From: Alphaproteobacteria bacterium
GTDB lineage: Bacteria; Pseudomonadota; Alphaproteobacteria; JANQMY01
Length of the DNA: 64,000 nucleotides
NCBI GenBank assembly: GCA_028289425.1
Contig: JANQPL010000004.1
Span: 558,001-622,000 of the forward strand
Reading direction: 5' to 3'
In this document: piece after piece, positions 2,725-22,929 of the stretch
Numbering within the stretch: the first letter of the stretch is position 1
Layout of the letters: every line of letters begins with the position of its first letter
Program-made: the position numbers and the translations under genes
Notes under the pieces: generated by a model
Told to the model about the DNA's origin: nothing
Databases searched by the model: none
What the model saw: the letters and a program-made list of their open reading frames with translations, nothing else

Positions 2725-3678
2725 ATGTCCACTCCTAACGATCTTCATAACTTATCCGTACACGGTCCCAAGTGGTTTGTTGACGCCCTGTCCCAGCCAA
2801 GACAGGAAGGCTCTGTTACTGTGGACGGGTGCGACGTGCACTACTTCCAATGGGGCGATCCCAGCAAACGTGGCGTTTTGCTGGCGCACGGCTTCCTCGC
2901 CCACGCGCGTTGCTTTGCTTTCATCGCGCCTCTGTTGATGAACGATTTTCATCTGGTCGCCTATGACCTCTCCGGCATGGGCGATTCGGGCGCGCGCGAG
3001 ACCTATGACGACCAGACGCGCAACGCAGAAATGTTGGCCGTGGCGGACCATGCCGGTCTGATGTCAGGGGCGCTGCCGCCGTTTGTGGCCACGCATTCCT
3101 ACGGAAGTTCCATCGCAATCGCCGCCGGAACCCAGGATCCGGACGCTTTTGGCGGGACCATCATCTGCGACTTCATGATGTTGCGGCCGCACATCTTGCG
3201 CGACTATATGGGACGACGGAACGAACGGCACATGCCGTCGGGTCGACGCGCGAACAAAGTGTATCCGGATCTGGAAACGGCGCTTGGGCGATACCGGCTT
3301 GCCCCGCCGCAAACATGCGCCAATGATTTTTTGATGAACTACATGGCCTATCATTCACTTAAGCAAGTGGATGGTGGGTGGAGTTGGAAGTTCGATCCAG
3401 GCATCCTGGGGGCAGACATGCGCGAAAATGACTGGTGGGAACAACAGCCTGTGCGGTTTGCGCAAATGCCCGGACGCAAAGCGATCATACACGGCGAAGA
3501 CAGTATACTGTTCACGAAAGATTCAGCGGACTATGTTCGTGAGCTGACGGATGAACCGATACCCATCGTCTCAATTCCGGAAGCGCAGCATCACCTCATG
3601 CTCGACCAGCCGATCGGTTTCGCTGCAGCGCTGAAATCGGTGTTGGCGGTTTGGGACGCAGAGGATCGCGGGCGATAG
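2725..3678 (+). CDS. Alpha/beta hydrolase
   Basis: This is a 317-residue soluble hydrolase of the alpha/beta fold. The oxyanion-hole segment LLAHGFLAHARCF and the strand DFHLVAYDLSGMGDSG are typical. The nucleophile elbow reads THSYGSS, so Ser is present although the first Gly of GxSxG is replaced. The catalytic His is probably in EAQHHLML near the C-terminus. There is no signal peptide, so it should act in the cytoplasm on an unknown ester or related substrate. It lies between kinases of opposite orientation, with only 5 bases between its stop and the convergent kinase, which gives no hint of a pathway. Confidence 0.85.
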   Translation: MSTPNDLHNLSVHGPKWFVDALSQPRQEGSVTVDGCDVHYFQWGDPSKRGVLLAHGFLAHARCFAFIAPLLMNDFHLVAYDLSGMGDSGARETYDDQTRNAEMLAVADHAGLMSGALPPFVATHSYGSSIAIAAGTQDPDAFGGTIICDFMMLRPHILRDYMGRRNERHMPSGRRANKVYPDLETALGRYRLAPPQTCANDFLMNYMAYHSLKQVDGGWSWKFDPGILGADMRENDWWEQQPVRFAQMPGRKAIIHGEDSILFTKDSADYVRELTDEPIPIVSIPEAQHHLMLDQPIGFAAALKSVLAVWDAEDRGR

Positions 3679-18830: not shown

Positions 18831-19928
18831 TTAAGGCTTCCAGGGCTCGCTGTAATTCTCCGCGCCCTCTTTACGCACATCCGTCAGCCAGTCCCCTTCA
18901 TAGGGCCAGACCTCTGGATTGTCGTCGGACGGTCCCTGCCAGAAGCGCTTCAGCGGCCCTTCGGCGCCGCCTTCCAATGACCAGGCCTGACGCCGGAACG
19001 TCCAGCTGTCGGGCACCAGGCGGTGGGCTTCACGGAAGTGGGTGATGGCCGCTTGGTGGTCGCCCTGCTTTTCAAGCTCGGTCGCGAGTTCGAAATGGGC
19101 GTGACCCAACGCTGAGTCCGCAGTGCGCGGGCGCGACCGTTCGATCACTTCCTCGGGCGTGTGGGCGAATGCGCTGGCAGCGCCCTTCTCAACCCAATCC
19201 TTGAGAGCGGCGTGATATTCAGCGGGGCTTGCCTGAATCTTCATGGCTTCCGCACCCATCTCCAACAAACGTTGGGGCAGATCGCCCGTCGGCGGTTGGA
19301 AACCGGGCGTATCGGTGGGCGGTGCGGGCGCTGCTTCTGCCGGACGCACGATCATGCCTTGTTCGTCAATCCAGAGGCTGCTCGGAATGTTGATGACGCC
19401 AAACAGATTGGCCATGGCGTGGTGCTCATCGATGAGCGACGGATGGTCCGGATTGGCCGCTTCGATGTATTCGCGGCAGCCGGCGGCGCCTAAAACGTCC
19501 AGGCCGACCGTGACCAGCTCAAATCCTTTGGGCTTCAGGTCGGTGCGGAGGGCCTGCCACACGGGCAGGTCACGAGAGCAGCCTCAATAGGGTGCCCAGG
19601 CATAGAGCAGGACTTTCTCCCCGCGCAGACTGTTCAGCTGGAACATATTGCCGTCGAGATCCGGCAGGGTGAGGTTCGGGGCTTCGGCGGTTGTCAGCGC
19701 ACGGGCGCCTTGTGATTCCGGGCCGATCGCCCAGAGATCTTTGCCGTCTGCTTTGACCAGGGGCAGGCCCATGGTGTCGGCCAGTTCTTGAATGTCTACC
19801 GTGTCGCCGTTGAGACTGTCCGGCAGAGGAATGCACACATCGCCTTTGCACGCGCCTTCCGGTTTGAATTGCCAACCGGTCGCTTCTTCAAAGTCGCTTC
19901 GTTTGATGTGTTTGGACGTGCTGAGCAT
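18831..19928 (-). CDS. Predicted selenocysteine-containing ResA-like redoxin (in-frame TGA)
   Basis: Two open frames, 19584-19928 and 18831-19562, lie in the same reading frame with one TGA (19584-19586) as the only stop. Read through, they give a 365-residue protein. The TGA is codon 115 in WAPY-TGA-GCSRDLP, aligned with the first Cys of the thioredoxin-type WAxWCGxC active site. A hairpin fitting a bacterial SECIS lies just downstream. The redoxin fold spans about 85-200 (NLTLPDLDGNMFQLNSLRGE, then IPSSLWIDEQG). A C-terminal TPR-like region (LGHAHFELATELEKQGD) follows. A second Cys sits at 117, and Cys27/Cys32 form an N-terminal CX4C. Without recoding this would be a truncated pseudogene, but the frame downstream is fully intact. 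It is probably a cytoplasmic thiol or peroxide reductant. Confidence 0.82.
19553..19586 (-). promoter_or_regulatory. SECIS-like hairpin after in-frame TGA
   Basis: In the mRNA, the UGA at 19586-19584 is followed by 14 bases and then CCUGCC-CGUGU-GGCAGG, a perfect 6-base-pair stem with a 5-base loop. The loop begins 20 bases after the UGA and has G as its second base. Published bacterial SECIS models ask for a loop 16-37 bases downstream with a G among the first two loop bases, so this hairpin qualifies. Confidence 0.7.
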
Positions 19929-20665: not shown

Positions 20666-20694
20666 TTTACATACATACATAAATGTATGTAAAA
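20666..20694. promoter_or_regulatory. TetR operator between regulator and molybdoenzyme
   Basis: TACATACAT-AA-ATGTATGTA is a perfect palindrome with 9-base arms (20672-20691) embedded in a repeated ACAT/ATGT tract. An overlapping register gives 11-base arms, TTTACATACAT and ATGTATGTAAA. It resembles AcrR-type operators and lies 28 bases upstream of the TetR start and 43 bases upstream of the molybdoenzyme ATG. Confidence 0.8.
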
Positions 20695-20736
20695 GGTCAA
20701 GAAATAAATGCCGGTAACGACCGAAAAGGAAGACCC

Positions 20737-22929
20737 ATGGCGCGTGTAGAAGAAAAAACAGTTTTGTGTGCCAGTTGCGATATTGCCTGTCAGTTGAGGG
20801 CAGAGGTGACCGATGGACGGGTGACCAAGATCAAGTCCCACTACAACCCGCTGCTCAAAGATAATATTTGCATGAAGGGCATTTATGCGCCCAAAGGGTT
20901 CGCCCATCCGGACCGGGTGCTCTATCCGCTGAAACGCAAAGGCGAACGCGGGTCCGGCGAATGGCAGCGTGTGTCTTGGGATGACGCCATGGGCGAAATC
21001 ACCGACCGGCTGAAGAAAGTGGTCGACACTCACGGACCGGAAGCCCTCGCCGTTTCCACAAGTCAATGGAACACGTCGACTGAAAGCGGGGCCGGCCGCC
21101 GCTTTATGAACCTGCTTGGGTCACCCAATTGGATCAGCGGGGTGGCCCTGTGCGCGGGCAATACGGCAGCCGTCAATCGCATGGTGTACGGATGGTTTCC
21201 GTTCCCAGATTTCGCGAGCTCCAAATGCATTGTTCTGTTTGGCCACAATCCAAAGCGTCACAGCTGGACGCCGATTTACAATTCGATCCGCAAAGCTCAG
21301 CAGGACGGCGCAAAGCTGATCGTTCTCGACCCGCGTCGCAGCGAAAGCGCGGAACGGGCCGACATTTGGTTGCCGCTCAAAGCGGGCACCGATGCGGCCA
21401 TGTGCCTGGGCTGGCTCAACGTTATCATCAAGGATGAGCTTTACGACAAAGAGTTCGTGGCCAAATGGACCCATGGCTTTGACGAGTTCGCTGCGCGCGT
21501 GGCGGACTTTCCACTGGAGCGGGTCGCGGAAATCACCGGTTGCGAGCCGGAGATGATCGCGGAAGCGGCGCGCCTGTACGCAACCCATGGACCTTCGGTT
21601 ATTCCGTGGACCCCCATAACCGACCAACAGCGCAACAGCACATCGGCCATTCGACTTCATGCGTCGCTGCGGGCCATCTGCGGATATCTGGATGTGCCGG
21701 GGGGTGAGGGCCTGTCGGGCTTCCCGAAAGACATCATCCCAGAGACAGTGATCGAAGGGCATGACCTTTTGTCCGACGAGCAGAAGGCCAAGCAGCTGGG
21801 GTCGGATACGCATCCGGTCTTCACCTATCGCGGCACCGCGGCTTTGGCGGCGCCCACCAGAAGAGCGTGGGGCCATGAATATGCGAACATCGTCATGGGC
21901 AGCTATATGGCGAACCCATCGGCTACATTCCGGGCCATGGCCGACGGTGTGCCCTATCCGGTGAAAGCGTTCATCGTGCTCGGCAACAACGCGATGATGA
22001 GTTACGCGAATATGGAACTCATTTATCGCGGCCTGATGAATCAGGATCTGATCGTCGCGCACGAACATATGAAAACACCCACGGCGCAACTGGCGGATTT
22101 CATTCTGCCGGGCGACAGCTGGCTCGAGCGGAATCACATGCTGGACGGCTATGGCTGGTCGAATGTGGTGCGCACGTCCGAAAAATCGATGGAGCCACCC
22201 GGCGAATGCCGTGGCGTTTATGAGTTCTGGCGGGATCTCGCCCATCGCTTCGGCTTTGGCAATCAGTTTCCATGGAAGACGGTGGAAGAGCTCTACACCT
22301 ATCGTTTGCAAGCCACAGGCATGACGTGGGAACAGTTTGTGGACACTTATGAAATGTATTTGCCGGAACCGAAATTCAGAAAATACGAGGAGAACGGGTT
22401 TGCCACGCCCACCGGCAAAGTGGAGCTGAAATCAACCATTCTCGAAGATCTGGGCTTCGATCCGCTGCCCTATTGGCGGGAAGAGCCTGAAGCAGATCCG
22501 GACTATCCACTGCAACTGTTCACGGGCGTGCGCGAAGATGAGTTTTTCCAGACCGGTCAGCGGTTCATTCCGGAACTGCGCAAGCGCAAGCCCGACCCGC
22601 AAATGTTCATCAGCGCGGCCGATGCGGAAGAATGGCAGGTGGTGGACGGCGATTGGGTCGATGTGCATTCCAAGAGTGGCAAAGTGCGCTTGCAGACGTC
22701 GATTCGGGACGACATGCCCAAAGGATTAATCCGTGTGCCCCATGGCTGGTGGAAACCGGAAATGGAACAGGGCATCAAGGGCGGCCTGTCGGGTGTGTGG
22801 CTTCATTCGGACGCGCAAGTCTGTCCCGACGATGACGATTTCCTCGACCGCGAGCAGGGCATTCCGCACTTCAAAGGCATCCCCGCCCGTATTGTGAAAG
22901 TGGCCGATCAGAGGGCGGCGGCAGAATGA
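20737..22929 (+). CDS. Molybdopterin-dependent oxidoreductase (DMSO reductase superfamily)
   Basis: This 730-residue enzyme binds bis-molybdopterin guanine dinucleotide and one iron-sulfur cluster. The N-terminal cluster ligands are C11, C14, C18 and C45 (CASCDIACQL, DNICMKG). The likely metal ligand is Cys139 in GVALCAGNTA, where formate dehydrogenases may have selenocysteine. The C-terminal cofactor-binding domain begins near TPTGKVELKS. There is no Tat signal, so it should be cytoplasmic. I chose the ATG at 20737 because AAGGA lies 7-11 bases upstream; an in-frame ATG at 20683 sits inside the operator. The substrate is unknown. It overlaps the next gene by four bases (ATGA). Confidence 0.9.
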   Translation: MARVEEKTVLCASCDIACQLRAEVTDGRVTKIKSHYNPLLKDNICMKGIYAPKGFAHPDRVLYPLKRKGERGSGEWQRVSWDDAMGEITDRLKKVVDTHGPEALAVSTSQWNTSTESGAGRRFMNLLGSPNWISGVALCAGNTAAVNRMVYGWFPFPDFASSKCIVLFGHNPKRHSWTPIYNSIRKAQQDGAKLIVLDPRRSESAERADIWLPLKAGTDAAMCLGWLNVIIKDELYDKEFVAKWTHGFDEFAARVADFPLERVAEITGCEPEMIAEAARLYATHGPSVIPWTPITDQQRNSTSAIRLHASLRAICGYLDVPGGEGLSGFPKDIIPETVIEGHDLLSDEQKAKQLGSDTHPVFTYRGTAALAAPTRRAWGHEYANIVMGSYMANPSATFRAMADGVPYPVKAFIVLGNNAMMSYANMELIYRGLMNQDLIVAHEHMKTPTAQLADFILPGDSWLERNHMLDGYGWSNVVRTSEKSMEPPGECRGVYEFWRDLAHRFGFGNQFPWKTVEELYTYRLQATGMTWEQFVDTYEMYLPEPKFRKYEENGFATPTGKVELKSTILEDLGFDPLPYWREEPEADPDYPLQLFTGVREDEFFQTGQRFIPELRKRKPDPQMFISAADAEEWQVVDGDWVDVHSKSGKVRLQTSIRDDMPKGLIRVPHGWWKPEMEQGIKGGLSGVWLHSDAQVCPDDDDFLDREQGIPHFKGIPARIVKVADQRAAAE

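Follow-up and report, generated by a model that had tools for sequence, protein, structure and literature searches.

The gene and its family

The window analysed in this study, meaning the whole stretch of DNA at its full length of 64,000 nucleotides, holds on its minus strand a single reading frame that runs from 19928 to 18831 and has as its sole interruption the TGA at 19586-19584. Standard gene calling would split the gene in two at this in-frame UGA, which here is best read as a codon for selenocysteine (Sec) followed by a conserved SECIS hairpin. The features of the locus are as follows:

18831-19928, minus strand: selenoprotein gene of 365 amino acids with UGA115 read as Sec; match to NF041054 at 492.7 bits against a curated cut-off of 300
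18833-18831, minus strand: terminal stop codon of the selenoprotein gene
19584-19586, minus strand: in-frame UGA, Sec codon 115, in the motif WAPYUGC; TGA in 54 of 55 homologues and TGC in one
19347-19688, minus strand: thioredoxin-like AhpC-TSA/ResA domain (Pfam), residues 81-194, bearing the U-G-C redox motif
19833-19850, minus strand: second invariant cysteine pair, C27/C32, in the N-terminal part; 53 of 53 homologues
19008-19100, minus strand: TPR-like repeat, residues 277-307 (Pfam, 24.7 bits, below the cut-off of 27)
19564-19569, minus strand: 5' arm of the proposed SECIS stem, CCUGCC, within the codons for Asp-Leu-Pro
19559-19563, minus strand: apical loop, C-GU-G-U; closing pair C-G in 46, A-U in 2 and A.G in 1 of 49 distinct rows
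19553-19558, minus strand: 3' arm of the proposed SECIS stem, GGCAGG, within the codons for Trp-Gln-Ala

The match to NF041054, the NCBIfam model for 'ResA-like WAxxUGC motif-containing protein', is at equivalog level and spans residues 1-363, and judged by this match the gene is a member of a known, curated selenoprotein family. The closest solved structures to the thioredoxin-like part are those of thioredoxin-family and ResA proteins, and Cys27, Cys32, the Sec position and Cys117 are all invariant among the 53 aligned homologues. The product would be a thioredoxin-fold redox protein with a Sec-Gly-Cys active site, the second cysteine pair and the TPR-like repeat, and its ResA/AhpC-TSA fold and UGC motif point to an enzyme that probably uses Sec to handle thiol-disulfides or peroxides, the redox reaction itself being read from sequence. 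The C27/C32 pair may be an additional redox or metal site.

A search of 289 genomes of the class gave 20 family matches of at least 230 bits, all carrying TGA at the Sec codon; the weaker matches, below 230 bits, were ResA-like proteins and were left out. The genome_contigs collection gave 35 relatives, 34 with TGA and one with TGC. The nearest named relatives are mostly metagenome bins labelled Gammaproteobacteria or Pseudomonadales, with others labelled Acidimicrobiales, Chloroflexi, Acidobacteria, Actinomycetes and Binataceae. The exception, a homologue labelled Verrucomicrobiaceae (L068), has TGC (Cys) at 3352-3354 in the motif WAxxCGC and the loop GAUCU, and represents a natural Sec/Cys exchange. 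Despite its differing loop it forms four of the five core pairs of the hairpin by position, and is therefore a poor negative control. A phylum-wide search for Cys forms returned only known members (two of 398 genomes, E <= 1e-25), and no relative was found in a scan of viral contigs.

Neighbouring genes were sought near the 35 homologues, namely an asparaginase, a sulfatase, a TetR gene, a molybdopterin oxidoreductase and a gene which we take to be PhyH-like. The selenoprotein itself was recovered at all 35 loci (35 rows), with a single weak TetR match (L051) among the neighbours, so that no conserved operon supports the reading. In the window, the molybdopterin oxidoreductase (20683-22929, plus strand) is related to formate dehydrogenase and thiosulfate reductase, though below the cut-offs among the NCBIfam matches listed, and is adjoined by the TetR gene (20680-20048).

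The hairpin downstream of the UGA

The original prediction described a perfect stem, CCTGCC-CGTGT-GGCAGG, after the TGA, with the apical loop 20 bases away and G as the second loop base. The sequence is exactly as described and lies on the minus strand. The bSECIS model, as set out in section 5 of PMC13188914, allows a loop of 3-9 nt, a stem of 4-16 bp, a G in loop positions 1-2, a UGA-to-loop spacing of 16-37 nt and a minimum free energy (MFE) of -7.5 or lower. With an upper stem of 6 bp, a spacing of 20 nt and energies of -9.3 kcal/mol for the bare hairpin and -13.3 kcal/mol for the 42 nt after the UGA, the window hairpin falls within every one of these limits, in agreement with the distance and loop-G constraints that had been proposed for it.

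Taken alone, the hairpin of this single sequence is modest evidence. The suggested comparison of folding energy with shuffled sequence lends it no support, as 104 of 200 shuffles of the 46 nt from the UGA fold equally well (z 0.04). Rule-obeying hairpins are not rare in this DNA either: a perfect 6-bp example follows 2.3% of the 15,416 in-frame codon positions and 3.5% of the 1,924 TGA triplets in the window, and an ungapped hairpin of at least 4 bp and <= -7.5 follows 4.7% of 2,000 sampled positions. A stable alternative fold, which would have spoken against the prediction, is not preferred; the pair probability of the hairpin is at least 0.89 in four of six sequence contexts and 0.54-0.66 in the two longest.

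These energies would suit the view that the hairpin simply follows from the peptide Asp-Leu-Pro-Val-Trp-Gln-Ala, the genome being GC-rich, and that Sec insertion, though real, is served by another structure. The peptide alone yields around 4.2 of the five core pairs in the window gene, codon-shuffled versions hold all five in 37% of draws (mean over genes), and most of the remaining stem pairing is imposed by the amino acids. The choice among synonymous codons contradicts this view. Over 303 scorable codons, synonymous conservation peaks at codon +8 downstream of the UGA (z 7.1), followed by codon +7 (z 5.9), while codon +6 scores z 2.3; these three codons build the upper stem and loop, +7 and +8 lying at the hairpin top. 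Codon +6 (Leu/Val) ends in G in all 53 genes (CTG 31, TTG 19, GTG 3), where CTC alone would be expected 13.5 times. Codon +7 is CCC in 33, TCC in 17 and CCA in three, giving CCC or TCC in 50 of 53, while CCG was not seen in these 53 genes against 16.1 expected. At codon +8, GTG is used in 47 of 47 Val cases against 17.4 expected. The pattern stayed intact in sets thinned at 80, 70 and 60% identity (41, 29 and 15 representatives), in which codon +6 kept its bias in 41/41, 29/29 and 15/15 cases against 22.5, 16.0 and 7.6 expected.

For the comparison of stems, the 48-nt alignment of the 54 TGA sequences is free of gaps. A homologue at a contig end (L030) was kept in this alignment and left out of the codon tests, the Cys form was used in the scan for synonymous conservation and left out of the stem alignment and codon counts, and the duplicates L012, L093 and the window gene were dropped in favour of L010 and L009. 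All five core pairs are kept in 51 of the 54 TGA genes and one is broken in the other three. Over 49 distinct rows, 95.9% of stem cells are paired, a level that none of 500 shuffles reached and that compares with at most 67% for slid partners. The outermost pair is absent in nine of the 49 rows and the next in three rows of one kind. Loss of the stem in sister genes, which would have weakened the prediction, was not seen: the same-genus gene L030 and the close L015 both retain it.

The stem exchanges C-G, U-G and U-A without passing through C.A, as in column pair 19-33, where 30 of the 49 rows are C-G, 10 U-A, six U-G and three other. Since AT-rich genes favour both TTG and CAA, expectations were corrected for each gene's own codon use. 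On that basis the combination of CTG with CAA, which would place a C.A mismatch in the stem, occurs in 0 of 44 genes against 8.2 expected, no draw of 20,000 being as low, and after thinning at 70% identity in 0 of 27 (P 0.002). The matching excess of TTG with CAA is weak (7 against 3.8 expected, P 0.07). Two of the five whole-structure measures, those counting two-sided changes and further pair types, are not clearly above shuffles for the six-pair stem, where 196 of 500 shuffles reach them, a number that drops to 25 of 500 once the loop pair is included. The argument from codon choice is independent of these limits on covariation. The proof thus rests on synonymous-codon conservation and covariation, not on folding energy, and the comparative check that had been proposed, of stem conservation with compensatory changes, is strongly positive, as stem and loop are kept among TGA homologues beyond what the protein needs. 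With the codon bias surviving thinning, the C.A mismatch avoided and the loop pair exchanging between C-G and A-U, a mere by-product of the peptide is very unlikely.

Within the loop, the second base is G in 54 of 54 TGA genes. Loop bases 1 and 4, the conserved third positions of codons +7 and +8, can form a Watson-Crick pair in 52 of 53 genes, whereas 400 codon-shuffled sets averaged 17.1 and never exceeded 28; the alternative pair of bases 1 and 5 is found in three of 53. In the window gene, G19562 and U19561 would thus form a two-base loop closed by the covarying pair C19563/G19560, leaving U19559 unpaired; across the family a base pair would close the G[U/G] tip, and the U on the 3' side would stay unpaired. 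The usual energy models disallow hairpin loops under three bases, and for this reason folding tools cannot show such a tip.

Sec decoding and the tip of the loop

In bacterial Sec decoding, SelB binds a hairpin downstream of the UGA and brings Sec-tRNA-Sec to that codon. The genome of the window (G000) has the complete trait on one contig (C19): tRNA-Sec (selC, 83.2 bits), selB (299.3 bits against a cut-off of 242.25), selA (580.7 against 267.9) and selD (341.3 against 125). Together with membership of NF041054 and the conservation of hairpin and loop, this supports the interpretation first given to the hairpin. Given where the hairpin lies, the family to which the gene belongs, the conserved UGA, the codon-level conservation and covariation of the hairpin and the presence of Sec machinery genes, it can be regarded with high confidence as a bacterial SECIS element within a selenoprotein gene. 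SelB, carrying GTP and Sec-tRNA-Sec, would bind the hairpin top while the ribosome stands at the UGA, and selenocysteine would be delivered there such that the UGA does not end translation. SelB most likely reads the G and U (or G) of the tip, a dinucleotide that a C-G (or A-U) pair would hold in place, with a single unpaired base 3' of that pair. For the window gene, SelB binding and Sec insertion in the cell are suggested by the hairpin's anatomy and the genome's gene set. The SECIS part of this decoding is summarised in section 5 of PMC13188914.

Conservation at the RNA level alone names no reading factor, and the hairpin could in principle work independently of SelB, for example by pausing the ribosome or as a generic signal for reading through the stop codon with a near-cognate amino acid. 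This is highly improbable given that one homologue carries TGC (Cys) there, the replacement to be expected if the codon means Sec, that the family is curated as a selenoprotein, that the full machinery is encoded, and that the loop matches the SECIS loops of UGSC, SelD and other selenoprotein genes of the genome. A further reading, in which the TGA truly ends the gene or is a sequencing error and what follows is a pseudogene remnant, has a negligible probability, for although the standard code gives two open frames meeting at the TGA, the frame runs on over 250 codons with family-wide conservation and the TGA recurs in nearly all homologues across many genomes, which already contradicts it.

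The same genome provides further SECIS elements for comparison. Its selD (L092:2596) holds an in-frame TGA in the motif SAGUAGKLG, and SelD is probably itself a selenoprotein here; its likely SECIS, picked from two hairpins in its fold, lies 33 nt downstream of the TGA with the loop AGUUU (GUU). Three more TGA genes lie near selDAB, coding for a UGSC family protein (NF041046), a UPPC redoxin and a UPYC Prx-like protein that no NCBIfam model matched at E 1e-10. Their positions are:

L091:14884-15399, minus strand: TGA gene
L091:8656-9876, plus strand: TGA gene
L092:1416-2201, minus strand: TGA gene

A paralogue of the window gene is found on contig C14. The loops of the UGSC, UPPC and UPYC genes and of this paralogue are AGUUU, GGUCG, AGUUG and AGGUU. 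Counting SelD and the window gene, six SECIS elements were examined in the genome, and every one is compatible with pairing between loop bases 1 and 4, G as base 2 and U or G as base 3. A scan of the genome for the exact tip together with a TGA returned 26 matches in forward and 27 in reverse orientation, a reversed control giving 10 and 11, but was set aside because the other SECIS elements use other letters.

Across the class, 34 places with UGSC genes were found and 30 became loci, 29 of which were read (L126 was missed), as were five of six UPPC loci (L146 was missed) and all four UPYC loci; the UPPC loci L148 and L149 are Cys forms and were excluded from the loop counts. The UPYC loops are uninformative on the pair because the encoded amino acids leave no alternative to it, the null giving 4.0 of 4. 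In the UGSC genes, G at base 2 and U or G at base 3 are kept in 29 of 29, against 4.8 expected, and the two-base form is found in 23 of 29. In the other six (AGUCU) the only fit is a three-base loop with bases 1 and 5 paired, and so the two-base rule is not universal. Over the loop, UGSC proteins have Ser (AGT) only with Leu (TTG or CTG), in 19 of 29 genes, and Cys (TGT) only with Met (ATG) or Thr (ACG), in the remaining 10 of 29. These residue pairs, at loci L115-L144, look as if chosen by RNA pairing.

It is a tentative possibility, consistent with the loop sequences, that the SelB of this lineage reads one common tip on all its SECIS elements, made up of a G[U/G] loop, an exchangeable Watson-Crick pair (C-G, G-C, A-U or U-A) and one unpaired 3' base of any kind. 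If so, the need of the RNA would even select pairs of amino acids in the UGSC family, and bacterial selenoprotein genes could be sought by a sharper rule than the requirement for a G at loop position 1 or 2, which chance hairpins often satisfy. The common tip is the part that is possibly worth a specialist's time.

Comparison with known systems

In the SECIS of E. coli fdhF, the GU at the tip is read by SelB within a short loop closed by a G-C pair; a bulged U lies lower on the 5' side and there is no extra 3' loop base. The GU tip of the window hairpin is alike, but here the base left unpaired lies 3' of the tip. At the protein level, the window product matches NF041054 as a full-length equivalog with the motif WAPYUGC and no notable difference.

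Selenoproteins of Prx-like and TlpA-family type containing UGC appear in published lists (PMC2398784, PMC9312934 and PMC13188914) and have an AhpC-TSA/TlpA-type fold and the Sec motif UGC in common with the window protein. They are likely identical with NF041054, although the two are set together here by description and not by sequence. The term 'WAxxUGC' was not found in the literature searched, nor was a description of a two-base loop with an unpaired 3' base, in a literature that left most subscription papers on SelB outside its scope.

The covariance model of epsilonproteobacterial SECIS elements, in the available text of PMC4607533, has a common apical hairpin of 5-6 bp with an invariant loop G and covariation across selenoprotein genes. 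It is like the window hairpin in its apical stem and loop G, but concerns another lineage and other genes, and that text contains no mention of a closing pair inside the loop. A further comparison is with the bSECIS model, which in PMC13188914 has the loop pattern N1-G[G|U]-N-N2, with the pair closing three bases. The window loop does not follow this pattern, which the model itself gives as holding 'mostly' and not as obligatory; in the WAxxUGC family the pair closes two bases (C-GU-G, C-GG-G or A-GG-U) and leaves one 3' base free. This two-base G[U/G] loop, with its covarying closing pair and one unpaired 3' base, is the new detail, the rest of the hairpin being of an already known kind.
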